Assembly: GCA_015179125.1 (NCBI GenBank)
Contig: WHVA01000003.1
Span: 186,001 to 250,000 of the forward strand
Reading direction: 5' to 3'
From: Gautieria morchelliformis
Lineage: Eukaryota; Basidiomycota; Agaricomycetes; Gomphales; Gomphaceae
Length of the DNA stretch: 64,000 bases
Shown here: piece by piece, positions 9,149 through 57,951 of the stretch
Layout of the letters: the number at the start of each line of letters is the position of its first letter
Position numbering within the stretch: the stretch's first letter is position 1
Program-made: the position numbers and the translations under genes
Notes under the pieces: model-generated
Databases searched by the model: none
The model's input: the letters and a program-made list of their open reading frames with translations, nothing else
What the model was told of the DNA's origin: nothing

Positions 9149-10504
9149 TCTGTTCAGTAGTCGAAGATAAGCACCGAGGACACGTCGAGATAGAAAGTTA
9201 ACGTAATTAGCCCGGTTTAGCTGGTTGGCGTTCGCTGTAATTTTTTTTCATTCATTCCAACCCCGCGAGGGCGAGGCGCACTGAAACACCGGATATGCTG
9301 CGTAAGTATCGGTGTAAAAATGTTACTTCCTTCGTTTGTAACTTCCCAGGGGTACTGAGTCAGTCCAAGAGATTCTAGGTAACATTCAGGCAACAGGAGT
9401 GCACTGACCAACTAAAGGATTACACGAAGACTTCATGAAGGACTGCTGGCGAAGACGACATCGGACTTACAACTAAGCTTCCGAGACAATGATATGTAAG
9501 CTGTGTTCCTGCTTTCAATTTCCGTCAGCTGATTTCTATTTCGCCATTTGAAACAGACCTGCCTGGTAGAAGCGGGTGAGGCACCTCGGCGGATTTGGCG
9601 TAAAAACAAAAATAGAACCACGGTTATGAAAGGATGGACCGTGGGATCACTGGAAGCCCTGCACAAGCTCAGCCTTACACAGCTCGGATGCTCGGCATCA
9701 AAGCGTGCGTCGACAAACCAATCGTTGCGCCATTATTCCTCGAGGCTGTGCACCACTCTCTACATCGGCATTTCGCTGCAACCAACCTTGCCTTAACCAC
9801 GTGGGGCCATCCGTGCCATCTTGCATACAGTAACTGTCTATGCTATGCCGCCCGTGCATAAATTCAGCGTCGACCTTCACAATGTTGAGCGCGCGGCCAC
9901 TTCAGGTCCTGTCTAAGGCATGTGCCATGGCCCACTCTTATTCGAGACCTCTCAGCTTTCAAGGACATCTTCCTTGGACAGTCTGATGCCAAACAGTCTG
10001 GAGCCCAGAGACGGACTTCTCGGGGAAGCCTCGATCGCATGGGAAGGAGTAAGCCGAGGTGGCGCGCCACTGAGCAATTTGCTTACTCGTCCTTCACTCA
10101 GTTGGTCCAATACGCTATGGACTTTAAGGCTTCTGCAGAGACCTGTGTTCATGACACAGCTTCACCATGGAATCTGACTCGTTCAGGATGTCGACATTGC
10201 GGTTACTCTACACCCTATGGCTTTGCTGAGACGGAACCCATTGTGGGTCGGGCACATTCAAAGTCCCCACTGCCTACACCTCCCTCGACTTGTTCCATGG
10301 CATTTGAGCATGGTGAGCCTGGCAGTCCTCTGGCAGGCGTTGTGTGCTGTTTGGCGGCGAGGAATGATGATCACAATGCCAGATCGCGTACACCATCTAC
10401 CAGACTGACACGTCCCATCCCATTTATTTGCCACAGCTTCATAACTAACATCTCCTGCACTAGTCATAGACAGTAAAAGCCCATGTCGTTCCCCTTCGCC
10501 AGAT
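9149..10504. other. No confident gene; possible upstream exons of the zinc-finger gene
   Basis: An open frame of 184 codons on the plus strand (9922-10476) has no recognised domain and could be chance. A possible acceptor (CGCCAG) lies at 10495-10500, just before the zinc-finger exon, so upstream exons probably lie in this interval. Their boundaries could not be fixed by reading alone. Confidence 0.3.
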
Positions 10505-11041
10505 GTGGATTCTCGCCTCAGCGTGGAGCCGAGAAAAGCCACGTTTAAAAGAAGTCACTCCTCGATGGTGAGTTCTTTGCGTGGAAGCGAGTACCCAAAG
10601 CTTATGTCTTCCTTGAAGGTCACGCCCAATGAGTGTCCTGGGAAAGGCATAGCCGTCAATGCCCCGAGACCTCGGAAACGTCGGGCGGCAGTACTAGAAA
10701 CTAACGAGGCTCCTGCTAGTTCTGCAGAGATTTCAGAGCCAGAGCCGTCCAGAAGGAGCTATAGGACGTCGAAGAAAGACTCTCGTCGGGACTACGAGAG
10801 CGATGAAGAGTACAGTGATCTCGGCGGTCGAAGTCGCGCCAGCAAGATTTCGACCAACAGATACGAGTGCCAACAGTGCGGGTGCAGTTGTAGCCGCTCT
10901 TCTGACCTCACGCGGCATATCGACACAGTCCATCGCAGTCGTCAATGGCAATGTTCCGGCTGCTCACAGATATTTTCACGCAAGGACGCCGTCAAACGGC
11001 ACATCAAAAGGAAAAAATGCAGGAGAAAAAGCGAGGTCTAA
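10505..11041 (+). CDS. C2H2 zinc-finger protein, last exon
   Basis: The last 55 or so residues hold two tandem C2H2 fingers. The first is YECQQCG...SSDLTRHIDTVH; the second is WQCSGCSQIFSRKDAVKRHIKRKKC, whose final ligand is Cys. A linker of about six residues separates them. The preceding part is rich in Ser, Arg, Glu and Lys, with basic stretches such as RPRKRR and RRSYRTSKKDSRR that could act as nuclear localisation signals. This layout suits a small fungal sequence-specific DNA-binding protein. The true start is unclear: 10503 offers an out-of-frame ATG, while the in-frame reading opens just after a likely splice acceptor, so one or more 5' exons are expected. Targets cannot be inferred. 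Confidence 0.7.
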   Translation: MDSRLSVEPRKATFKRSHSSMVSSLRGSEYPKLMSSLKVTPNECPGKGIAVNAPRPRKRRAAVLETNEAPASSAEISEPEPSRRSYRTSKKDSRRDYESDEEYSDLGGRSRASKISTNRYECQQCGCSCSRSSDLTRHIDTVHRSRQWQCSGCSQIFSRKDAVKRHIKRKKCRRKSEV

Positions 11042-31675: not shown

Positions 31676-31853
31676 TGTTACTCGCGTGCTACTCGCGAGA
31701 GATCACGTGACGCAGTCACCCAATATGGTAGTCTGAGTTCGAAGGGAAACCCTATCAGTTTTCCCTTCGAACTCAGGTGCGTAGTGCTAGGTACTCACCG
31801 AGTAGATAGTAATCTTATCAGTTTTCCCTTCGAACTCAGTCCTGCATGTAACA
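31676..31853 (+). repeat. 5' LTR of Copia element 1
   Basis: TGTTACTCGCG...TGTAACA. It contains CTGAGTTCGAAGGGAAA, its perfect inverted copy TTTCCCTTCGAACTCAG, and a third copy of that word near the 3' end, so it can fold into either of two hairpins. Confidence 0.9.
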
Positions 31854-34800
31854 GGTTATGGGCCCCGCGCTATAATCGAAGGAAAAGAACTCAGCATGTC
31901 CAAATCAGAGGCTGAAGGTCGCGCGAAAAGCGTCAGACTCACGGGCACGAATTACGATGTCTGGGCAACCGAAATGCAGGAGAAGCTCAAGAACATAGGC
32001 GCATGGCGAATAGTCATCGAAGACCTCAAAAGACCGATGGACGCGAGAGAAGCGGAAAAGTGGATTCTGAAGAGGGAGGAGGCCGCCGGCACCATACTCG
32101 AATCCCTAACTCCGACACAATACGTTCACGTCGAGAACATCATGGAAAATCCCATCGAAATGTGGAAAAGGCTAAAAAGCAAGAATCTGGATAGAACTAC
32201 TATCGCTACAGGAAATAGAAACCTGAAGCAACGAGGATCTTTTGCGCCACTTGCAGAGAGGCTATCCGCACCACGAAAACAGAAGAAAAGTACACCGAGC
32301 GATATCACAGAGGAACTCGCTGGGAATGCGAACCTACGACCTTCGCCTTCATCATCAATCAACGGAGACGCCGATCTGTGCTGGAACACGGACACAGGAG
32401 CGACCAGCCACATGACTCCTCATCGTCATTGGCTGCGGAATTACGAGTACTACAGAGTACCTATCAGACTAGCAACAAACGAGGTAGTATACTCGGCCGG
32501 GCGCGGGCAAGTATTGTTTTCCCCCATGATCGACGGGAAGCCGACACAAGACATTTTATTCTCGAAAGTTCTACACGTGCCCGCACTCCAGAACAACTTA
32601 CTCGCAGTCCTCCACCTTACCACACACCACAGTTTCACTGTCTGCATCGTGAAGGACCACATATCGTTTATCCAAGGCAATAAATTGCGCTTCTGTGCCG
32701 CCGTACGAAACGGGACAGGTTTCTTGACTGGGAACACAGTCCCAAATCAAGAACTCGCACTCGCCATCTCTTCGCAAATAGTAGACCGACCATTACTCCA
32801 CAGACGACTCGCGCACATTGGACAGGCGCGGCTGGAGAAGCTCCTAGAAAATAACATGGTTGATGGGATACAGGTAAACTCAAATGGGACTGTCCCTCAT
32901 ATCTGCGAACCATGTATTGCTGCGAAGCAACACCGCAACCCCTTCCCAAAAAGCACCAACCGCGCATCCAGCCCACTCGACCTTGTTGTCTCAGACGTCC
33001 ATGGGCCTCTCCCAGTCCGCACACCATCAGGACACCGATACTGGATTACTTTCACGGACGACTGCACGAGGTACAGGACCGTTTATCTCCTGAAGACAAA
33101 GGATGAGGCATTTGATGCCTACCGGGCCTTCGAAGCACTGGCAGAAAATCAATTAAACTCGAGAGTGAAGCGTTTTAGGGACGACAAAGGCGAGGAGTAT
33201 ATTGGTCATAAGTGGGACCAACATTTCCAGCACCGTGGTATACTCCACGAACATACTACGAAGGGCACACCGCAGCAGAACGGCATCTCAGAACGGACGA
33301 ATCGGACCTTCATGGAAGGAACGATCGCACTACTACAGCAAGCCCATCTACCAGCGTCGATGTGGGGAGATGCCCTAAAATTATTGGTTCGAATCGTCAA
33401 TGCCACTCCAACCTCTGCGCTCATAGACAAAACTCCCTACGAGGCCTGGTTTGGCCACAAACCAAACCTTGGAATGCTACGTACCTTTGGCTGCACTGCC
33501 TATGTCCATGTGCAAAAGGATGAAAGAGCTGGACTGCAACCCAGATCTCGCAAATGCATTTACCTCGGCTTCGAGGATGGTTATAAGGGTTGGCGCTGCT
33601 TGGACCCCATCACAAAACGCACCATCATATCTCGAGACGTCATCTTCGATGAATCTGAATTCCCAGGTCTTACCACGGCGAACAATATTACCGAACCACT
33701 CTTACCTTCCGCCATACTTCCCGACCAGATCGTAGCTCCACTGGAAGGGCAACCGGACCAAGGCATTGAACTCCCAGAAGCCGCCCCTCCAGAAAATCCC
33801 AGACCAACAGCCAAACCCAACCCACCAGTTGCTCCCAACCCTCCTGCCGACCCTGACCCACCAGCCGACCCCGTCCCACCAGCTGACCCTGACCCACCAG
33901 CCCCACCCGCACCTATCGCACCCCTCCGTCGGTCCAGCAGGAATACTGCCCGGATTGATTATCGCCATCTCCATGACCCATTCCTCCAACCTCGTCCACC
34001 TCCTGATCATGACGATCCAGGCCCTGAAGGGGGTGCAGCAGCCAGCGCTTCAATCATTCAGGCCCTGGAATTCATCTATGATGAATCAGACATCATGGAG
34101 GCAAACGCGATCTCACCGGGTATGATCAGAGCAGCACTGAATGCAACAATAAAAGATGGCCGTGTTCCCAAGACGTTCGCTGAAGCAATGCAACGCTCCG
34201 ACGCGCCAATATGGAAGGACTCGACGGACGCAGAGATCCGAGCCCTCCTAGACAATGGGACATGGGAATTAGTAAAATTACCTCCTGGAGAGAAAGCCAT
34301 TGGCTCTCGGTGGGTCTTCCGAATCAAGCTCCATTCGGACGGCTCTCTAGATAAATACAAGAGCCGCCTGGTAGCAAAGGGATATACCCAACGACCAGGC
34401 ATCGATTACGACGAAGTCTTCGCTCCTACCACACGATGGGCAGCCCTGCGCACAATATTAGCTCAGGGAGCACTACAGGGAGCACATATCGAGTCAATAG
34501 ACATATCGAACGCTTACCTAAATGGAGTACTCGCCGATGACGCAACAATATACATGCAGCAACCGGAAGGCTACCATCAAGGGGGATCAGACTGGGTATG
34601 CAAGCTGAAGAGAGGGCTGTATGGATTAAAGCAGAGTGGAAGGTTATGGTACGAACGGCTTGGGACTGCGCTAGAGAGTATGGGATTCAAGCATCTCCAA
34701 TCTGCGCCAAGTGTCTACATCTGGTTGAGCAACACTACCAAGATCGTCATACCTGTTTTTGTCGATGATTTGACTCTGGTATCAAACTCCAGGCAGGAAC

Positions 34801-35747
34801 TAGACCAGGTCAAAAACAAACTAGGCGAAATCTTCAAATTGAAGGATCTGGGCCCGACAACGTCGTTACTGGGAGTAGAGGTAGAATACAATCGCTCACA
34901 GAGGACATTAAGACTCTCACAAAGCAGTACATCCAAGAACTCCTCGATCGGTTCCAGATGTCGGATTGTCGACCCGTATTCACGCCTATGGCCCCAGGTT
35001 CAAATTTGAGCGCTGCCATGGGACCATCAACACCAGAGGAGATAGAGGAAATGAGGGATGTGCCCTACCTAAATGCAGTCGGAGCGCTGAATTATTTAGC
35101 CATCGCGACTCGTCCTGACATTGCCTACGCCGTCGGACGCCTCGCACGATTCAACTCAAATCCAGGCCCAGCGCATTGGACAGCGGTGAAACACCTCCTA
35201 CGCTACCTGCAAGGGACGATCGATCTAGCACTCACCTACGCACCCGATCCATCAATCAAATCGTTCCAGACATGGACCGACGCTGATCACGGAGGAAATC
35301 CCGACAACGGTCGATCCACCTCTGGGTTCCTCACAAAGGTCGGGACTGGAGCCGTCAGCTGGGCCAGCAAGTTGCAGAACATAGTCACCTTATCAACAAC
35401 CGAGGCCGAGTTCGTCGCATCAGTCCTGGCAGGGACCGAAATCGTCTGGTTGCGAAGCTTATTGGATGAGCTTGATTCAAGAGTTGAAGGACCATCTCAC
35501 CTATTCATTGATAATCAATCTGCTCTATCTGTTGCCAAAAATCCCGAGCATCATGGACGCATGAAGCACCTGGATATCCGGTACTTCTGGCTGCGAGAAA
35601 AGGTCGCTCATAAAGTCATCCAGCTCGGTTACGTACCTACGAACAGTATGCCGGCGGACCTACTGACCAAAGCGTTACCTCGCGAATTGGTCGAACGACA
35701 TAGACGCACTATGGGACTCTTCTAACGTTGACCGCGTCAAGGGGGTG

Positions 35748-35925
35748 TGTTACTCGCGTGCTACTCGCGAGAGATCACGTGACGCAGTCACCCAATATGG
35801 TAGTCTGAGTTCGAAGGGAAACCCTATCAGTTTTCCCTTCGAACTCAGGTGCGTAGTGCTAGGTACTCACCGAGTAGATAGTAATCTTATCAGTTTTCCC
35901 TTCGAACTCAGTCCTGCGTGTAACA
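35748..35925 (+). repeat. 3' LTR of Copia element 1
   Basis: Same as the 5' LTR except for one base near the end (GCATG versus GCGTG). Confidence 0.9.
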
Positions 35926-36295: not shown

Positions 36296-37600
36296 TGAAG
36301 GAGGTCCGCGTCATGGCCCCTCCGGCAGTACTGATACCCCACAGGTCTCATCAGGCTACATCGGCAACACATCTCAGCACGACACACAACACACTCACCG
36401 TATTATGATGGATATAAGCACTCACTATATCATGCCGTCCGCACAGCCAACCACCACCTCATGGCTCAGCGCCATAGCCATGGGGATCAAATTTGGCGTG
36501 GCGATCCCCGTGAATTTCGTGGGGAGGGTGCCAAGGGGGAACCGTCGACGTGGGGGAGGCCGCCACCGCCACTCCCGCTGTCGTCATGTGTCGCTAAGGC
36601 CGCCCACGCACCCGCCACTGCATTGATGGACGTCGAGAAATCGACAGCCCCTCCAGTCCCAGTCCCATCGGACTCCTCGTCAGCAACCGCCACGGCCGCC
36701 GCGCCGTCTTCGTCCTCAGGGAGATCACGCGCCGCGGCCATTGCCCGCTTGTCGTCATGCGTCAACATGAATATCTAGATACACACGCCAGTCACATCAG
36801 CACTCCATATCACACATACAAGGGAAAGAGAGGAGGAGAGAAGACAAGAAGGAGAGAAGACACAAGGAGAGAAGACAAGAAGGAGAGAAGAAGATAAGGA
36901 GAGAAGGAGAAGGCGAGAAGGAGAGAAGACGAGAAGGAGGGATGACAAGAAGGAGAGAAGACGAGAAGGAGAGAAGAAGATAAGGAGAGAAGGAGAAGAC
37001 GAGAAGGAGAGAAGACGAGACGGAGAGGAGACGAGACAGAGAGGAGACGAGAAGGAGAGGAGACAAGAAGAAGAGAAGACGAGAAGGAGAGATGACTCAC
37101 CCTCCTATCCGCGCCTGCGTGCGAGCTGAACCGCGTTGCCGTCACGATGCGCCTCTTCCTTGGGCCGACCGCGCGCACCGCGACGTCCGGCGTCTCGATC
37201 ACAGCGACCATGCGCTGTGGCGCAGTCCCGAACCGCGTCACGAAGACCGCCGGTGTCCCCATGCGCGACGAGGCGGGCAGCGGTGTGAGCGGCATCATGG
37301 GCTGGCGGCTGCCCCCAGGCTTCGATAGGGAGACGCCCGACCCCGGCGGCGGCGGCGGTGACATTAGCGACTGCCGGCGAGGCGTTTTGGAGCCAGAGCT
37401 GGAGAGGGGGAGCGCAGAGGTGGTGTGCGTGGCGGGCACAGGGGGCCATGAGTCTGAGCGGGGTGGGCGAAGCATCGGAGGTGGGGGAGGCGACAACGGC
37501 GTGGGGCTCCATGGTGGCGGCGTCGGTGTCAGACCATTGGAGGTGGAGGATGACGGATTTGGTCACGCACTAAGCGGAGCCCTCTTGTTGGTTGCCTGGT
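36296..37600 (-). pseudogene. F-box/WD40 protein, C-terminal tail fragment (copy B)
   Basis: On the minus strand the order is [20 protein letters not shown] near 37555, a Pro/Ser-rich tail ([20 protein letters not shown]), [13 protein letters not shown] and [12 protein letters not shown] splice donor follows at about 37095, and a long intron made mostly of GA-rich repeat. The next exon ([41 protein letters not shown]) runs to about 36490, then an [11 protein letters not shown]-like end near 36450. It parallels copy A (+, 12.8-13.8 kb) block for block. Frame changes without splice signals and the lack of any WD repeat upstream mark it as a truncated pseudogene. Confidence 0.65.
36824..37095. 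repeat. Purine-rich minisatellite in the copy B intron
   Basis: About 270 bases built from variants of GAGAAGGAGAGAAGACAAGA on the plus strand. The strand is almost free of pyrimidines apart from single C/T positions, so it could form triplex DNA. The matching intron of copy A is only about 70 bases, so the array expanded after the copies split. Confidence 0.8.
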
Positions 37601-38488
37601 CCACAGAAAGAGAATAGCTGGGTGCGTGGTATAGATCGGTTTGGATATACGGTTCATGCCAGGTGGTGAGGTGCTCCCAAGAATAGGCCAAGAGAACAGA
37701 GCAGACGGAGGTTCAAAGTCATCGAGTGCGAACTGACAAACAGGCGGTTGATGCTGGTCCAAGAGTGAGCCATATGCCTCAGAGCCACACCAGTCACCTC
37801 CATCATCATCCTGGCCATATGAATAGAGGTCACTGCCCTTTATTTCTTGTGTCTCCCTCATGTCAACATCCAGGATGTAGTTGTCCGGAAGGATTTCTGG
37901 ATCGGAGGAGAGAATTAGCATCACCCTCACCATCCAAACTGTCTCCGGTATCATTTTCGACGTGATTAGTGTCCGTGAGCTCTAGGGCTTCAGCATCCGA
38001 GATTCCCACTGCAGATGCCGTCTGATTGTCCGGAAGGGCAGAACTGAATTTTTGCGCAGGCTGCACGACGTAGACCGAGCATTCTACGAAGTCGTGGTGT
38101 CAAACAGAGCCTACTTATAGCTCAGAGCGTTGAGGACGCGACGCGACGCGACCTCACGTGACTGTGGCAGAACTCCGCTAAGTCAGATCCTGACGCCACT
38201 ATGGAAATATTGCTTACAGCTATGTATAAGACGTTTCATATACATAGTATCGCAGTGGTCACGTAACTACCCCAGATATCAAATATCAAGAATTTCCAAA
38301 ACCATCGAGATCTTCAAAACAAGGTAGCAATTCCGCCAAGAAGGTTGATGCTGAACAATTGTAATCATTGTAAATCTTCAAGTAGATCAGTAACGGTGCA
38401 ACAAGGCCATATACCGGTTGTATGTCTAGACCTGGTCGGTTGTCGAGGGGTGGCGATGCGCGGGTGGCGGCTTCCTCTGGTTAATCGA
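37601..38488. other. No confident gene; acidic short ORF on the minus strand
   Basis: A minus-strand frame at 37863-38066 (MQPAQKFSSALPDNQ, SDAEALELTD) and an overlapping one at 37529-37954 are rich in Asp and Glu. They have no recognised domain and could be remnants of a first exon. Nothing else is seen. Confidence 0.3.
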
Positions 38489-41400
38489 TTAATCCACCAC
38501 CTGCATAGCCTGCTTACCGAGGTCGCACAACCGCAGCTCGTTGGGTGGCGTGGGTGAAGGCGGTATCTTATTGAAGAAATAGTCAAACTCCATCTCCTCC
38601 TCCCGTGTTCTTTTGCGCGGGATCCACGTTTCTGGATCAGGCGCCGGTGGTGACCTGTGCGTTGACAATACCTTCACAGTTTCTTCAGGCTGAACGGTAT
38701 TATCGTCCGCCCGCGATGTAGCTATGACGTCCTGCATCGCGGAAGCCAGCTGATTCTGAGAGGTGATACCATCCCCCGCCGACTCAATGATGGTGACCAG
38801 GCGATCTGAGGTGGCGAGATCTGCAGCAACCGCCTGAAGATGAGCAGCTATATCAGCTTCAGCCTGCGCCTTTGCTGCAGCTATAACTGATGCTTTAGGA
38901 GGCCGAATGACCCGCGAGCGACGTTTGAACATATGAGAAATATTAATCTCCAGAGGTGCAGTGAAAAAAGAAGTTGGCCGGGACCGAGGGGCGGAAGCCG
39001 CGTCGGAGTCATCGCTGTCACTTGAGTCAGTGACCGCAGCTCGCGCCTGGCTGGGGTTGTCCAGCGGGAGGTTGTCCCGAACACGCCGTTCTGATATCCT
39101 GCGTTTCTTTGATCTGCGGTCTTGGGATGGAATGCGCGGACAGCGAGCTCGATGGGTCCGCCAATGTGATCCCTCGTACTTATATCTCGTGTCGAGTCGT
39201 ATATTTGTCCCACAAGCTTTGCACGTCACACGATGAGGGCTGACATCCGTGGCATAGGCGTCATCGTCGAGCAGTTGCTTTCTCGAGTCTTCTTTCTCGC
39301 TCTTGGCCCGAATCTTAGCGTCCCCGGGACTACGAGGGTTGTTCAGGGAACAAGATAATTGAAAACCAGATGTGAAAACGCACACTACCAGCTGAATGTC
39401 TTTGCATGACGTTTTGTGTAGTGGCCATACACTCTGAGAATAACGAATGATCGGGTGAAGCTTGATCCAGCAGTTACAGTGTTTGCACAACAGCCGATGA
39501 GGTTCGATTCTCTGAACGTCAGGATCATCAATGAACTGTTGTTTGCGCTCGTCCTCGCCAGGCCACCTTGGTCGCAACGGCAAAGGCGGTAATGTTATCG
39601 GAGATGGTGCCCTCCTGTAACCTGCGGCTTTGCCTTTGCCTTTTGGAGGCGGACGGATGGCTCGAGGGACTGCATTCCGATGTATTTCGGTAGTGTGCGT
39701 CTTTATGATTCGATTTGTATGTTGGCGAGCAGCATCACGCGCACCACTGCCGATCGAATTAACGACCACAGGGATAAAACGAATAAAACAAACACACCCG
39801 GCTTGAGTTGTTTGGTCAAGGCATTTGTCCTTGTGTGCGAGCCATTTCTCGATCATATACGCATCGGGACCCTCTAACTCGACCCGGGACTGACATCTTC
39901 GACATACCATAGACCGCGGGTCCGCGTCCAATACATCCGGATCCTCTAGCAGTTTGCGGCGTCTAAATTCGACCGCGTCGTGAACTGGACTTTCTCTGCG
40001 AGATTGCTGCTTAATATCCCTTGGAGAGGCGTTAACTGACATGTGGTTGCCATCATGACCATTAGCAGGTAAATCCCCCAGTCCCAAGCGGTTATGACGA
40101 CCGACTCTATCCTCTATGGTGGTGGTAAGGACGGGTTTACTGGTGGCAGATAAAGAGTTGGCTTCGGCCGGAAGCTTTGGAGCTATGGGGCTCTGAAGGT
40201 CTGGACTTAAGACAACATTTCGTGCTTGCACAGGATCGTTCTTGACGGCGGAAGAACCTGGACTACAGGTGTTGTTGCCATTCTGATTCTGTGTGGAGTG
40301 AATGGTGGGTTCCACCTTTGAGGGGGGAGCGCTGGATACTTTAAGTGTTTCATTATGTCCCTTTGTTGCTGGAGTTTTGACCACGCTACGTCTATTATCA
40401 CGGGCAGTTTCGGGTGCTGCAGGAGCTCCAGAATCTTCCTGAGAGCGATCGCTTGTTGTGTCGTAACCGTCTTCGGTGTTGCCAATACGAAGGCGGTTGC
40501 TGAGGTGAAGAAAAGTACGTGAGCTTACGGGCAGAGAAAGGGGTGAAGACAAAGGGTGATGATACAATGTTTGGCATGATGGCACTTACTGTTTGTCTGT
40601 TTTTCTTACGTGACCTTTCCAAACGCCATAGCTGTACGGGGTTCGAGATGACAGATCAACCCAGCGATGGCACAGGGTGCAGAACGCGCGAAACGGTTCT
40701 AATTCACCAATGTAATGTTCTCCCATGAGCGCTTTATAGCTCGCTTTCCGGTGGGGAGAGAGTCGCTCTAGGGAAAAGGCTGTCGCCCGCGACGTGGGCA
40801 TAATGGCCGAGGGTATCACCCCGTCCTTCGCAGAAATAGAGATAGCGCGTGCACGAGTAATGTGATGGGGCGTGCTAGGGGCTCGAGGTTGACCCGCAGA
40901 TTGGACAGGCGACCCCAAGAAGTTGGATCGTGCGACTGGTAGCAAAGGCGGTTTCTGGGCGGCCGGAGGTGGGGGTGGGGGTGGGGGATGCATTGACTTT
41001 TGTGACATGTTTGGCTGACCGTGATGTGGCGAAGGAGGTTCATTCGACTGTGCCTCGGTACGATAGTAGTTGAAAGCAGCGACAGTCTGAGCAGATAAAT
41101 TTGCAGACTGGTGATCAGGTTCAACTCCCTGGGGCATCGTGTCCCCGCCAAGGCTCCTGTACATAGTTTGTGAGTATTGTTATGCGCGCAAAGTTTAATG
41201 AAATATATTACAGCATCGTTGGCAATGCTGCAGGTGCAGAAGCGGTTGAAGGATTATCAATGATAAACTGGAGTTCTTCTGTACTCCTTTGGTTAGTTGG
41301 GCCTATTATCTTCCCGTCCTTTAACAGGTGTGGCGCTGGGGCAGTCGCATTGGGCGGTCGCATATTGCTAAATACGAGAGCGCTCAGCGTTATATAAAGA

Positions 41401-41606
41401 AGCCCCGAGTAAGGGCGTTACTGTGTCGCGTATACTTACTGTGACTTTGTATTTCTGTGGGATCGCCAGACGGAAGCAGCGTACAGTTTAGTCTGATTTA
41501 GTTTGAGCCATTTGTCGCAGCGGTTGCAAAAGACGCGGTGAGGCTCTACTACGGATATATCTGGGTCATCGAGGAGCATCTGCTGCCGTTCCTGCAGTGA
41601 GGCCAT
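38489..41606 (-). CDS. Protein with five copies of a Cys-x2-Cys / Trp-x2-His-x3-Cys unit
   Basis: A multi-exon gene read leftwards from ATG at 41606 (MASLQERQQMLLDDPD) to the stop at 38489. Exons that keep frame are 41606-41440, 41156-40590 and 40499-38489. The last one has two probable in-frame introns, each marked by a loss of conservation right after a repeat. The repeated unit is about 47 residues: a lead of D-D-P-D-V, then P-H-R-V-x-C-x2-C-x3-I/L-x-L, a Tyr, and W-x2-H-x3-C. Unit 1 is in exon 1 (FCNRCDKW, VWRSH) and unit 2 in exon 2 (FCTLCHRW, VWKGH); both lack the last Cys. Units 3-5 (VCRRCQSR/KWLAHKDKC, LCKHCNCW/VWPLHKTSC, TCKACGTN/HWRTHRARC) are complete. The spacing suggests one zinc per unit. 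Linkers are Ser/Pro-rich and basic. The C-terminus has RKRTREEEMEFDYFF. It probably binds nucleic acid or protein in the nucleus; I do not recognise the family. Confidence 0.7.
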
Positions 41607-43828
41607 CGCAACCTGGAGTAAAGGGACCGGGGAGGGGAGAGCCAGATAAGCCAATAAACGAGGAAAATGAACGTGAAGCTGTAATGGGAAGGGGAGTGAG
41701 GGGGAAACGAAGTTCACGTTGAAGGGTATCTACGCTGTGATGATGTGAAGATCAAAGTTGGTTGTAGAGGGGGTGGCAAGTTACTGTTGGACACGACGTA
41801 TGAGGGGGAGCTAATGTAAAAGAATGAAGGGGGGTGAATATAAACTGTTCTTACCTGTCCCACTTCGAGAGCGACTGCGTTTGGCTGAGGGGGAGGACGG
41901 AGGAAGAACGCCTGCGCGTTCCCTGGGAAAGCTACAACTCCGCTGCTCCGTCGGCGATTGCCGAACGGAGCACCGCGCGGCCGCAAACTCTGGAGATGTT
42001 TCCTGCCTCACGTACTGTTCACTATTTGGGCGGAACTGATTGCCATGCATGTGCATTGCTATGGAATTGTAGCGAAGATGTCACCTGTACAAGTTGTAGA
42101 GCCCTTGAGCTCGTGTTTGGTGTTAACTTTCCTTCTGATCTACGAGTCGAAAGTCGAGTAAATACTCCATAACCTGGTCATGCGCATCCCCCTAGTCACA
42201 AGCCTGATATATGATTACGTTCCCCAGCCCAACATCTACGGGAAACGTAGGACTGCCCTCGGGGTTGTTTTAACCACGGCTGTACGGTCAATGGCTAATC
42301 ATAGACACACAAGCCAAATGGAAGGTCAGATGCATTTTTAATCAAAATCATGTGCTTCTATGCTATCGGGGGACAGAATCTTTTCATCCCTGAACATGGT
42401 GAGTGATGGGAACTTCTCATGTACGATTTACTGTTCTAGTGTACTATGTGCTGAGGTATATCCGCCGGATGCTGCCTATAGTGGCCTCACTTCGCATAAA
42501 CAGCGTTACAGTCGATTACTCATCCAGGCTTCATCGTGAGCCCCTGCCGTGAGCACTGTCAGCGAATACTTACTCCCCAGCACAAGGGATATGGATTTCT
42601 GGTAGCGTCTCACTCATGCATGCACTGCTTCCCCCCCATATCGATCAAAATCTCAAAGCACCCCGAAACGGGATTTGATTGTATCGATAAGTGACCTCGA
42701 TATTCCTCCCCAACAAGCTTTCCCGATACTATACATATGTGTTCAACGTGTTAGGCGGAAAGCTAGCTCTGAACCAGTAAGCCTTCATGCGGTATACTTA
42801 TTGCTAACTCTTATGGCTCGAAGTAACACGACTTACAGGTTTCTATTAAGTCTTGTGCTCGACTGGTCTTAATGTGCGCTTGGACCTATTGCTTCCAGTG
42901 CATGCAAAGCTAGCTTCGCTGCAATCCATCTTACTCTAGGGCGTGAAATTCCATGCATCCTCATTGGTTCGCTCCTATATATATACATGCAAAGAAGCAC
43001 CAGAAACACCATGCGCTGGGTTATCAGGGAAATGTGTAGTTGTTACCGAGTGTCCCCAAATTTTGGATATTCACATGTTTGCAATATGAGTCAGGTCTCG
43101 TGTCTGCATCAAAAAGAGAAGGGAGCGGTATACTATACAATTACTGCTGATTCTGTAAGTGTCAATATTGGGCTGTACACGAGACATTACAAAACAGATT
43201 GAATATGGACAAAGATTATAACCATCATCTGTGAGGGTGAATTTATTGAAATATATTTTCGAAACAATTTCACAAAAATATAAAGCATACATATCTTAAA
43301 ATACAATAAGAAAAGAAAGACAAATGTCAAGGCGGAGAATGCTGTATTGTATTGTGGTCAGGTTCAGATTCAGGTTGGGGCAGGTTTGATTTGGCTGGGG
43401 GTTTGGGTTTGGGTTCGGGAAGTGTGGAAAGGGAGAAAGGAACAGAGGAAAAAGATAAGGGAAAAGAAGAAGAGACAGAGGGAAGAGCGGAAGTGGAAAC
43501 GGGAGTGGGTTCGGGTTCGGATGATGGGGACGAGGATGCGGGAAAGACGAGGGATGGGGTTCAGAAGATGAGCGGGTGATGGGGGAAAGGACGTGGATAA
43601 GGCTGCTACTATGGAGGATAACTAGCTAATAGTTTTTTTGGATTTTCTATTTTAATGTGAATATTTTTTCTTGGTGTTTTTTGTTTTGGGAATGGGATCG
43701 GAAACGGGGTGTGAAATGAACAGACAGAGAGAAAGGACAAGCCGAGAACTACAAGCGTAGCTATTCAGCAAAACAGCCAAGATAAAACATAGTCAAAGGA
43801 GTGTTGTGTCTAACTAAGAACATGACCG
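41607..43828. other. No gene recognised (2.2 kb)
   Basis: A short minus-strand frame at 41811-42056 (MHMHGNQFRPNSEQY, ending in a Ser/Arg stretch beside a GTAAG donor) might be an extra 5' exon of the Cys/His-repeat gene, but it does not splice in phase. The stretch 43340-43600 is G-rich with purine repeats. Nothing else is recognised. Confidence 0.4.
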
Positions 43829-44400: not shown

Positions 44401-44892
44401 GCCCATGCACGGACCACCCTCCCGTATATGGTCGCTGTATGGGAACCGCTGTTCAACCAGCACTCTACATGGTCTCAGTTCTAGCTGTTCAACCAGCTCT
44501 CAAATGTCTCTTTATTGTAAATTTGTAGTCTGCATCAAAGGCCTTGAAAAATAACCAATTATCGCCCATAAAAAATGTCTACTGTCCTCATAAGGCCTAT
44601 TCAAACATCCCTCTAATTATCTATGAATTTTACCTATTTTTCCGAGGCTGTCTCCACTCAAACTCACTTATTTCTGTGCAGCAGAGTTGTGGATACACAT
44701 GTCCCCACAACTCTGTTTCGGACTTCCGATTTCAAACTCCGACCGGACGCTCGCGTAACTCGCGGCTTGTGCACCCGCGGTCACCCACAAATCCGGTCAG
44801 GTGGCTCCTTCAGACTCAGCCTCTGAGTTTGAAAAGCCTAGTCATTTGCTTGTACAGCCTCAATGACTCAACTGACTCATGCACTCCTTGGT
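44401..44892. other. No gene recognised
   Basis: Contains a short inverted repeat, AGAGTTGTGG...CCACAACTCT, at about 44684-44714. That could be an LTR tip or a hairpin. No coding region. Confidence 0.35.
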
Positions 44893-45390
44893 GAGTCACA
44901 TGCTCATGACTCACCCAAGCTGTCATGAATCACATGGGCCCAATTAATGACTCATTGCTGACAAATCAAGCCCTGATTGGTGGAAAACCCAGTGGAGTCA
45001 CCAGTAGGAGTCATTTCTAGTCACTGTGAGTCATTATGAGTCAGACAGAACCTTCCTAGAGTCACACGCTCATGACTCACCCAAGCTGTCATGAATCACA
45101 TGGGCCCAATTAATGACTCATTGCTGACAAATCAAGCCCTGATTGGTGGAAAACCCAGTGGAGTCACCAGTAGGAGTCATTTCTAGTCACTGTGAGTCAT
45201 TATGAGTCAGACAGAACCTTCCTAGAGTCACACGCTCATGACTCACCCAAGCTGTCATGAATCACATGGGCCCAATTAATGACTCACTCCTGACAAATCA
45301 AGCCCTGATTGGTGGAAAACCTAGTGGAGTCACCAGTAGGAGTTATTTCTAGTCACTGTGAGTCATTATGAGTCAGACAGAACCTTCCTA
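44893..45390. repeat. Three tandem copies of a 166-bp unit
   Basis: Units start at 44893, 45059 and 45225 with GAGTCACAYGCTCATGACTC. They are almost identical, with a handful of substitutions in the third. Each unit carries four perfect TGA(C/G)TCA heptamers (one fewer where the leading base differs) and further GAGTCA hexamers, so about fifteen bZIP-type (Gcn4/AP-1-like) sites lie within 600 bases. More TGACTCA words lie just before and after the array. Confidence 0.85.
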
Positions 45391-45394
45391 CACA

Positions 45395-45560
45395 TTCCGA
45401 AAGCTTCTTCGTGACTCATTCCCCCATTCCATTAATAGATAGAAGGTCCTACCGCTTAGTTAAGCGCCTGTACAATACGATATAAAAGGAGGCCCTTTTT
45501 GCCTGCCTTTCATCAGCCTATCTACCCATCTTCTATCCTACACGTGACCTCGTGTGACTT
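45395..45560 (+). promoter_or_regulatory. TATA-type promoter downstream of the bZIP-site array
   Basis: TATAAAAGGAGGCC at 45481 is followed at about 30 bases by a pyrimidine-rich run (CTTTCATCAGCCTATCTACC) of the kind where fungal transcripts start. No open reading frame follows within 500 bases. This arrangement is also typical of the U3/R junction of a fungal LTR, so an LTR from an unrecognised element is the main alternative. Confidence 0.45.
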
Positions 45561-46789
45561 GCATCTTACTAAGCTGCTAATCCCAGCTAGGGTTATTCAC
45601 TTACTTTAGTGTCTAATTCCTTGTTAAGTAGTTACTTTACTGCTTAGCCACTTGGACTAATCCTCCGGGTGTAATTCTACAGAGTGAGTCTGTCAATTGA
45701 AAGTCTTGCCATTCGCACTCCAATACCCGAGACGATCTAGCCAGTTGATTTTCCTGATTAGAGACTTTCACAAGTCGCTTTGTTCACAAAACTCGTCCCT
45801 CGTTTTATTGCTGTGCGCTGGTAGATTATCAGGGCAGTCCATTTATAAACTCGCCTGCTAAGTACATTCCTTTATATTTTGGAATATGCTTGGACCCCGA
45901 TAGTGTCCTTGAACCTACAGTCTTTTAGTTTATTGTTCAGTGCTGCTAAGAAACACATTGCCTTCCATCCGTATTAACTTGGACTAGTTCTTACGTGGAT
46001 TGCAACCAAGGTACAAATATTAAATTATTTTCGGAGTTGTGCTGCAGCATTGTTTAATATTCTTTGAGTCTCGTAAACGACATGTTCTGATAGATTGAAG
46101 TGTTAGCAATAACACCAAAGTCTTGAAGGGTTCCAAAACAGTCGCGAGGGATGCGAATCGGTCGCGTGACCAGCCATGCTGCCAGCGTCAACTCGCGGCT
46201 GCACCGCTTGCTCACGATTGGACTGGTCAGTGGCACTGGCTTGCGATTGGCTGGCTGACTAAGCTTACCAATCGTGACATAACCGACGCCCACAACTACC
46301 CTGACCTGCGCGACTTTTTTGATTTTTGGATTCACTTTTTGGATATGATGAAGCCGGCCTGATGCATGATCATCCAGTTATCCAGCTCGACATATCTCAA
46401 TCCGAATAATTCGCAGGAACGACAGATTGAAGAAGAGTAATGGTCACTGAAGGCAACCAACCACTTCAATGGTTCAGCTGTTCCTGCGAACGAAACTGAT
46501 TTGGACCAGTTGATCATCGTGCCAGATCATCAATTAAGCACTTTTGTTGGCCATTGGCTTTTACTACCGTCATGCCAGGCCTTTTTCGCAAGGAGGGATG
46601 CATAGGTAGGTAAGAGCTGTTGTGGTTACGGCAAGACTCACTCGCCATCCCATCGCTGTTGCTGATAATTCAGTTTTCTCGTCCTTGTTCGCAATCTCCC
46701 TGTAGTTCTGCGAATCCTGGATGCTGCTTTTCTCTCTCGATTGAATCTTATTATCATGAAGGATATTGCTACGATTGTGATTGCTGACA
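45561..46789. other. No gene recognised; possible LTR or leader sequence
   Basis: Non-coding, AT-richer sequence follows the TATA box to about 46040. A short minus-strand frame at 46054-46335 has no family match. LTR ends and a target duplication were looked for and not found. Confidence 0.35.
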
Positions 46790-54636: not shown

Positions 54637-55269
54637 CTATGCCTGGTTATTATTTTCGTTCAAGGCATCAAACTGGTCTGACAACCTCAGGTATCGCCAC
54701 CTCCTGCGTCTGCACATGACAGAGTCTGCTCCATGTTTGAGCAGCAGCTGAACAATGGCATTGTTATGTTTTGACGATGCAGCCCGCAACATGCTGCCAT
54801 GCTCCCCCCCTTGGGCGTTGATGTCCGCACCCTTTTCCAGCAGCAAGCGAACAATGACCATGCCTCTACGAGAATGTGATGCCGCCGCGGCTTGCAGAGC
54901 ACTGCCATATTTTCCGCCTTGTGCATTGACATCCGCTGCATTCTCCAACAGCAGCCGAACGACCGCATCACTGCCAATATATGAGGTCGCTTGCAGCGCA
55001 TTGCCGTACCACCCGCCTTGGGCATTGACATCCGCCCCCTTGCACAGCAGTAGCCGAACGACCTTCTCACTACGATGATATGATGCTGCCGCTGCTTGCA
55101 ATGCATTACCACAGCCCCCCCCCTGTGCATTGACATCTCCTCCCCTCTCCAGCACCAAGTGAACAAGAGCATCATTGCCACCAAACGATGCCGCTTGCAG
55201 CGCACTGCCATACCACACTCCTTCTGCATTGATGTCTGCTCCATTCTTGAGCAGCAGCCGAACAACTGC

Positions 55270-56880
55270 ATCTGAACCACTTGACAATGCTGCAAGCAGT
55301 GCAGTACCACACTTTCCTCCTTTAGCATTGATATCTGATCCCTTCTCCAGGAGCAGCCGAACAATTGTAGCATGACCTTGTTTGGATGCTGCCTGCAGTG
55401 CACTGCCAAAGCATCCTCCCTTTGCATTGATGTCTGCGCCCTTGTGCAGCAGTAGCCGAATGACCTTCTCAACATCAAGATCCGATGCTGCTGCAGCTTG
55501 GAATGCATTACCATAGCCTCCCCCCTGTGCATCGACATCTGCCCCCTTATCCAGCACCAGATGAACAAGAGCATTATTGCCGCCAAATGATGCTGCTTGC
55601 AGTGCACTGCCATACCGTTCTCCTTCTAGATTGATGTCTGCTCCATTCTCAAGCAGCAGCCAAACAACTGCATCTGAACCACTTGACAATGCAGCAAATA
55701 GTGCATTATCACACTCTCCTCCTTGAGCATTGATATCTGATCCCTTCTCCAGGAGCTGCTGAACAATTGTAGTATGACCTTTTCTGGCTGCTGCCTGAAG
55801 TGCACTGCCATTTAATCCTCCTTTTGCGTTAACATCCGCCCCCTTCTCTAGCAGTAGCTGAATGACTGCTTCACTAGCACGACCTGACCACACTGCTGCC
55901 TGCAGCGCATTGCCATAGACCCCTCCTTGCGCATTGACATCCACCCCCTTATCCAGCACCAAACGAACAAGAGCATCATTGCTGCCATACGATGCCGCTT
56001 GCAGTGCATTGCCATACAATTCTCCTTCTGCATTGATGTCTGCTCCATTCTCGAGCAGCAGCTGAACAACTGCATCTGAACCCATTGACAATGCCACAAA
56101 TAGTGCACTACCATACACTCCTCCTTGAGCATTGATATCTGATCCCTTCTCCAGGAGCTGCTGAACGATTGTAGTATGACCTTGTCTGGCTGCTGCCTGA
56201 AGTGCACTGCCATTTACTCCTCCTTTTGCGTTAACATCCGCCCCCTTCTCTAGCAGTAGCTGAATGACCACTTCACTAGCATGATATGATGCCGCCACTG
56301 CCTGCAGTGCATTGCCATAGACCCCTCCTTGCGCATTGACATCCACCCCCTTATCCAGCACCAAACGAACAAGAGCATCATTGCTGCCATACGATACCGC
56401 TTGCAGTGCATTGCCATACCATTCTCCTTCTGCATTGATGTCTGCTCCATTCTTGAGCAGAAGCCGAGCAACTGCATCTGAACCCATTGACAATGCCACA
56501 AGCAGTGCACTACCATACTTTCCTCCCTGGGCATTGATGTCTGATCCCTTCTCCAGGAGCAGCTGAATGGTTGTAATATGACCTCAACTGACTGCTGCCT
56601 GCAGCGCATTTCCATAGACCCCTCCTTGAGCCTTGATGTCTGCTCCCCTTTCAAGCAGGAGCCTAACAACCGCATCACTGCCATCATATGAGGCCACTTG
56701 CAGTGCATTTCCATACCAGCCTTGCCGCGCATTGACATCTAACCCCTTATCCAGCAGCAGACGAACAAGAGCATCATTGCTGCCAAGTGATGCTGCTTGC
56801 AGCGCACTGCCATTTTTTCCTTCTGCATTGATATCCGCTCCATTCTCAAGCAGAAGCCGAGCAACTGCATCTGAACCCTT
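55270..56880 (-). repeat. 402-bp higher-order repeat in the ankyrin region
   Basis: The phrase CTGAACCC/CTGAACCA followed by TTGACAATGC recurs at about 55277, 55680, 56081, 56483 and 56876, a spacing of 402 bases (393 for the last). Each 402-base unit encodes four ankyrin repeats of about 33.5 residues. Each has its own signature: EKGSDINAQGG, ENGADINAEG, DKGVDVNAQGG and EKGADVNAKGG. The middle units are nearly identical, implying unit-level duplication or gene conversion. Confidence 0.8.
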
Positions 56881-57951
56881 TGACAACGCCGCAAGCAGTG
56901 CACTACCATATGCTCCTCCTTGGGCATTGATGTCCCATCCATTCTCCAGGAGCAGCTGAATGGTCATAGTATGACCTTTACTGGCTGCTGCCTGCAGCGC
57001 ATTTCCATAGATCCCTCCTTGCACATTGATGTCTGCTCCCCCTTCAAGCAGGAGTCTAACAACTGCATCCCTGCCATGATACGAGGCCGCTTGCAGCGCA
57101 TTTCCATACCAGCCTTGCCGCGCATTGACATCTGACCCCTTCAAAAGACTGCTGGATACTGTTCTCAACCCAGCCATTGATGTGTAATAAATAGGAGAAC
57201 ATTTCATGCTACATGTAGCATCCTCCCATGGCATGTTTGGATTCCAAAGACTCACCCAATTGGAATAGACGGGATGCTCAGGTTGAAGAAGTTCCATAAT
57301 CAGTAGGTGCAATGTTGGCTCCTCATCGTTATCTGACTGAGCGTGGAACATCCAGTACTGCGCCGAATATGATGAGAGTGGATAGGATGTGCGTGTAGTG
57401 TTATCTATGCAACCATGCTTGTCAAATTGCAACAGGTAGGCCAGGCATGCCTTAGCGATGAACGTATCAGCTAGTTTCTTGTTGAAATGATTTATATGAC
57501 TTTTTGCTGTTGCCTTTGCAGAGGTCCTCCGAGACAAGATATTCTCGGACAGAGAAATGTGCCAGGCTGACCTCTTCCCGCTGAGGGAACTGTGCCCGGT
57601 AGACAATGCTGTCAGTGCGGAGGTCTTCTCCGTCCTGCAATCGGATGTCGGGGACCATAATGGTGACAAGACTCGCACATATCGTCAGAACGTCACCTGG
57701 ATTCCAAAGCCACCGATTTGGGTCAAATAGGGGACCATTTTCAGTATCAGGATCTGTAGCAAGCAAATCCACAGCCTCGCTGAATGATAATTTGCGGGCT
57801 GAGAAAGCGAGCCCTTGCAGCAACTTCAGGGCATCCTGTCTGTAGTCCTCGTTGATTTCCAGAAGAATCCTATCATAGGTCTCGTAAAGGGTCTTCGGTA
57901 GACAGGTGAGTGCCTTCTCGAGTGCGGCAGGGGATCGACACCTTCGCAATA

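Follow-up and report, generated by a model that had tools for sequence, protein, structure and literature searches.

Classical C2H2 zinc-finger proteins are arrays of small modules copied within one lineage, each module obeying the spacing C-x2-4-C-x12-H-x3-5-H. Two other finger types combine cysteines and histidines in a comparable way, namely the CCHC knuckle, spaced C-x2-C-x4-H-x4-C, and the BED finger, described by the rule C-x2-C-xn-H-x3-5-[HC]. Here we analyzed a locus of the fungus Gautieria morchelliformis lying in a window of 64,000 nucleotides (positions 186,001 to 250,000 of contig WHVA01000003.1, hereafter C337) and set it against these systems. Within window positions 38489-41606 we found five related Cys/His units (U1 to U5) of about 50 residues each, all encoded on the minus strand:

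41588-41442, minus strand: U1, last Cys absent
40741-40592, minus strand: U2, last Cys absent
39964-39812, minus strand: U3, last Cys present
39547-39392, minus strand: U4, last Cys present
39283-39128, minus strand: U5, last Cys present

The original prediction of a five-unit repeat was confirmed, as a profile built from any four units recovered the fifth (E 8.4e-18 for U1, 3.2e-7 for U2, 9.2e-7 for U3, 1.4e-13 for U4 and 6.3e-11 for U5, the profile rows being taken from a single alignment built with all units), while the top place outside the units in these five scans of the window reached an E value of 0.098. A proline, the C-x2-C pair, a leucine, a tyrosine and W-x2-H are invariant across U1 to U5, and the consensus reads C-x2-C-x3-[ILV]-x-L-x5-Y-x4-W-x2-H-x3-C, with a ligand spacing in units 3 to 5 of C-x2-C-x19-H-x3-C. 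The proposed DDPD lead held exactly in U1 and U4 only, being EDPD in U3, DDDA in U5 and GEHY in U2. By contrast, the prediction that the last Cys is missing from units 1 and 2 but kept in units 3 to 5 was correct not only here but in all six copies of the gene described below.

The genome searched comprises 122 Mb in 1113 contigs, and all counts of relatives in it are lower bounds. At least four contigs hold further, more diverged multi-unit loci: C268 (126751-127599), C152, C158 and C227; decayed units were seen on C917 and C114. Weak candidate places on C383, C606, C446 and C758 were not upheld by the profile and were dropped. An alignment of 13 units, excluding C158c, C227a and the decayed C917 and C114 units, shows C-x2-C and W-x2-H to be invariant. 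Scans of viral and of prokaryotic sequences, each with one single-unit query, found no relatives; similar units are presumably common in mushroom-forming fungi.

How does this unit compare with described fingers? It differs from the CCHC knuckle in its Cys-to-His gap of 19 and in its H-x3-C ending. The likeness to BED fingers is closer, since units 3 to 5 fit the BED spacing rule, but the last ligand is missing from units 1 and 2, and to our knowledge neither the tyrosine nor the tryptophan three residues before the His is a BED hallmark. When the raw open reading frames (ORFs), the 13 units and the spliced protein were compared with Pfam, the zf-BED profile was unmatched at E values up to 10 and no zf-C2H2 match was listed for the unit ORFs, the 13 units or the spliced protein. 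The same library detected an ordinary C2H2 zinc-finger ORF elsewhere in the window, at 10445-11041. The earlier statement that the unit fits none of the C2H2, CCHC and BED patterns needs qualifying for BED, whose loose spacing rule accommodates units 3 to 5.

The Pfam matches obtained with these three query sets were all weak, none exceeding a cut-off where one was shown. They included CpXC for a raw ORF (E 0.022, below the curated cut-off), DUF5817 for one of the 13 units (E 0.0059, reported without bits) and DUF7828 for three of the 13, with a best E of 0.004 (again reported without bits). Over the three query sets, the DUF7828 scores shown were 14.5, 15.4 and 8.1 bits, against a cut-off of 25.7. 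We rejected an identity with DUF7828: run over the whole genome, its model picked one place (E 0.73), at another locus and in a frame without C-x2-C. Reading that place as the CCHC knuckle of a Copia element was also discarded, as the knuckle sits elsewhere in that locus. NCBIfam yielded two weak matches (E 0.059 and 0.15), and the best PDB matches had E values of 0.84 for one unit and of 0.21 and 1.9 for two profiles. Among the publications listed as matches, the opening portions of the abstracts contain no description of the unit. These searches bear out the original view that the family was unrecognized, nothing in Pfam, NCBIfam or PDB having passed a shown cut-off, and judging from sequence we file the unit as a putative C2HC-type, finger-like family without a description so far.

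By eye, the nearest pattern is the second finger of Rua1_C (PF14616), a fungal transcription-factor domain; Rua1 itself is described as a transcription factor (PMC9600162). That the unit could be a distant, repeated version of this finger is suggested by a weak Pfam match of one of the 13 units (positions 76-121, E 0.064) and by the genome's own Rua1_C genes, two of which, spliced by eye, encode a second finger with C-x2-C-x2-W and W-x2-H-x3-C. However, the match, at 14 bits, fell short of the cut-off of 27, and no match was listed for the other 12 units. In the Rua1_C finger the Cys-to-His gap is 23 instead of 19, the near-invariant tyrosine is missing and the putative introns fall inside the finger; nor was the finger repeated in the stretches read, whereas our units are. 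An hhalign comparison of the unit profile with Rua1_C gave a probability of 48% (P 1.8e-4, on two sequences), and shuffles holding Cys, His and Trp in place reached the Rua1_C score in 2693 and 324 of 5000 cases with a 12-unit profile and in 1350 and 295 of 5000 with a 5-unit profile. Such shuffles attain its score, so that the comparison does not establish homology to Rua1_C, which on balance we regard as quite unlikely.

The units are carried by a six-exon model, inferred from the sequence, that forms a single frame of 931 residues:

41440-41606, minus strand: exon 1, with the ATG at 41606 and unit 1; open frame; donor GTAAGT at 41439, phase 2
41212-41367, minus strand: putative exon 2, a unit-less linker with phase-2 joins at both ends and the same splice letters in six copies
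40590-41156, minus strand: exon 3, carrying unit 2 with a proline-rich linker; phase-2 donor GTAAGT at 40589
39798-40499, minus strand: exon 4, comprising a linker and unit 3 in an open frame, with a putative phase-2 donor, GTGTGT, at 39797
39747-39797, minus strand: probable in-frame intron of 51 nt, GTGTGT...GGCAG with GTTAAT inside; the same donor and acceptor letters in six copies
39384-39746, minus strand: exon 5, basic linker and unit 4; open frame
39330-39383, minus strand: probable in-frame intron of 54 nt, GTGCGT...CCTCGTAG with CTGAAC inside
38489-39329, minus strand: exon 6, unit 5, basic clusters and an acidic Ser/Asp run; frame open to the TAA

In this model the introns measure, in order, 72, 55, 90, 51 and 54 nt, and all five are of phase 2, exons 2 to 6 each beginning at codon offset 2. 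The splice letters are conserved across all six copies apart from donor 1 (41439), which is GC in the C416 copy; the donor of the last intron reads GTACGT in the C416 and C215 copies. On raw reading, units 3 to 5 sit in one open frame of 698 residues and look like a single exon because the 51- and 54-nt introns leave the frame open. The window gene thus probably has one unit per exon: the predicted spread over separate exons is borne out by the model, and it probably extends to units 3 to 5, which the segments 39797-39747 and 39383-39330 would divide among three exons.

A similar arrangement was apparent beyond the window gene. We scanned the stretch 12-45 nt past the His codon (510 nt in total) for the donor consensus GTRNGY in 15 units, five from the window, three each from C268 and C158 and two each from C152 and C227. 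Ten of the 15 units together contained eleven sites, all of them in phase 2 except one in phase 0, against an expectation of about 0.3 per phase from the background (17, 16 and 13 sites by phase in 25,650 nt of window open frames of at least 190 codons, that is, 0.51-0.66 per kb per phase). The five units with no strict donor in the scanned stretch were U5, C268c, C152a, C152b and C158b; by eye, C152b has GTATGA and C152a GTTAGT, both in phase 2, C268c has only a phase-0 site and C158b only a doubtful one within the unit. Flanking of unit exons by phase-2 introns would allow modules to be gained or lost without a frame shift, and the finding of units in separate exons joined at phase 2 supports the proposed growth by exon duplication. 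What this does not extend to is growth of the five units inside the window gene itself. U5 shares 49% identity with a C268 unit of another gene and at most 38% with its sister units, and the tree of the 13 units, in which none of the 10 inner branches is fully supported, joined U5 with that C268 unit at 90/85. Since U5 is nearer to the unit of another gene than to its own sisters, the five-unit array is probably, on sequence comparison, older than the gene that now carries it.

The whole gene is present in six copies in the genome, three of them on C337:

C337 223653-228742: the window copy (w)
C337 316888-321994: copy b
C337 337438-341098 and 352781-354183: copy c, split
C268, C416 and C215: one copy on each
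Window 36541-42790, no strand assigned: approximate block common to the duplicated copies (from a blastn comparison of the window with the other copies and from an all-against-all comparison)

Pairwise identity between copies is 96.5-99.0% (for copy c, over its 3.6-kb part only). The C416 and C215 copies, which share a longer collinear stretch at 96.8-98.0% identity, might represent two haplotypes, an explanation not open to the three copies on C337. The whole gene has been copied recently, several times, within the same genome. Copy c is interrupted upstream of the ATG by 11.7 kb (C337:341099-352780), both ends of which match the Copia-like element of the window (31676-35918, Copia-like by ORF reading), and its two halves overlap by 5 nt, as expected of a target-site duplication. 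Just downstream of the gene, window positions 36541-37633 contain short-period internal repeats; the corresponding stretch of the C215 copy (C215:339503-340464) is longer than that of C416. A tandem repeat at 44893-45390, made of two overlapping 332-nt stretches 98.5% alike with a 166-nt shift, lies inside 44436-46140, a stretch missing from copy b. Long ORFs with what by eye are ankyrin-like repeats, and with strong internal DNA repeats, occupy window positions 54637-57684.

A repeat at window positions 37653-38179 recurs in pieces, 70-85% identical, on 30 other contigs, and many of the matches begin at the same point near 38179; the ORFs tried over it gave no Pfam match at 0.01. The start of this repeat, 310 nt past the stop of the gene, together with the presence of six nearly identical copies in what reads as a transposon-rich region, would suit a gene carried as cargo of a mobile element, its copies being copies of the element. 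Against this, the ends of the shared block vary from copy to copy, no fixed termini were seen and the spliced protein had no transposase model among its listed matches at E values up to 10, so that we hold this reading to be most improbable. KDZ elements are placed in Basidiomycota and some Pezizomycetes (PMC12730594). KDZ transposon cargo in particular was unsupported, as none of the KDZ transposase matches listed, at least 91, falls on C337, C268, C416 or C215.

The original prediction had noted no sign of decay. This is true of the window copy, in which all six exons are open, as they are in the C268 and C416 copies, whose exon lengths differ from it only by multiples of three; but three of the six copies have broken frames, namely b (exons 4 and 6), C215 (exon 6) and c (exon 3). 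Together with whole-protein dN/dS values of 0.56-1.13 (eight of the 15 copy pairs, those for which dN/dS was calculated), this could indicate a dying duplicate family, functionless now, whose window copy is open merely through youth. Three copies nevertheless retain six exons in frame. Moreover, among the open copies the dN/dS of units 2 to 5 was 0.20 (w-C268), 0.38 (w-C416) and 0.27 (C268-C416), although counts are small (5-8 synonymous and 6-7 nonsynonymous differences per pair), against 0.77, 0.84 and 0.54 for the linkers of the same pairs. Pairs including broken copies gave 0.28 to 0.55 for units 2 to 5, except b-C416 (0.83), and the changes in unit 3, 0 to 3 per pair, were all nonsynonymous. 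Units 2 to 5 thus look constrained in most pairs and the linkers are near neutral, or nearly free to change. As the Cys and His ligands are, in addition, unchanged across the six copies, we consider a functionless family unlikely.

Unit 1 behaves differently. In its distal 20 codons, 11 of the 20 residues are variable across the six copies, versus 120 of 932 codons overall, and shuffled positions gave 11 variable residues in some 20-codon stretch at a frequency of 0.0021, in a test that presumes uniform variability along the protein. For the w-C416 pair, dN in this part was 0.30 and dS 0.037, on 14 synonymous sites. Either diversifying change in a single finger or a relaxation of constraint once the fourth ligand had been lost would fit this variation. 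The suggested specialization of units 1 and 2 is conjectural; unit 2, with 4 of 50 residues variable, is not unusual.

The units, the family they form within this genome, the gene copies and the structure of the frames are observed directly. We infer zinc binding, splicing, a nuclear location and nucleic-acid binding from the sequence, and somewhat favor, as a whole, a finger protein of an undescribed family that would be nuclear and whose fingers would grip DNA or RNA. In each of units 3 to 5, one zinc would be held by the two Cys of the knuckle together with the His and Cys of the segment after it; lacking the fourth ligand, units 1 and 2 might hold zinc weakly, through another ligand or not at all. 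Basic clusters resembling nuclear signals, along with the acidic Ser/Asp run after unit 5, point to a nuclear protein, in which the linkers may form contacts other than those of the fingers with DNA or RNA. Segmental duplication would have carried the locus to six places, with three copies now decaying and three open. An array of several fingers most likely serves to bind nucleic acid; the main rival is protein binding, with the fingers acting as clips on a scaffold with long disordered linkers. The latter is a possible, if doubtful, reading: it agrees with linkers that are long, fast-changing and rich in proline and serine, and no known nucleic-acid-binding finger profile of Pfam, DNA-binding ones included, was matched over a shown cut-off; on the other hand, the basic clusters of exon 6 and the basic linker preceding unit 4 are in keeping with a nuclear or nucleic-acid-related role, though they weigh weakly either way.

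In summary, our work describes a recurrent zinc-finger-like module, with its exon logic, that has no convincing Pfam or NCBIfam model or PDB chain. A profile of it would annotate several genes in G. morchelliformis and perhaps in other fungi, and the young set of copies allows loss, constraint and fast change to be compared finger by finger. With respect to C2H2 fingers, the unit has a Cys-to-His gap of 19, not about 12, and its last ligand is a Cys (H-x3-C), but like C2H2 multi-finger proteins it forms an array of small modules with copying in one lineage. We think it very unlikely that this is a lineage-specific, exon-modular C2HC family undergoing rapid duplication in a transposon-rich genome, its specificity altered through the distal half of finger 1; if true, it would be a fungal parallel to the fast-evolving multi-finger proteins with which animals track transposons.
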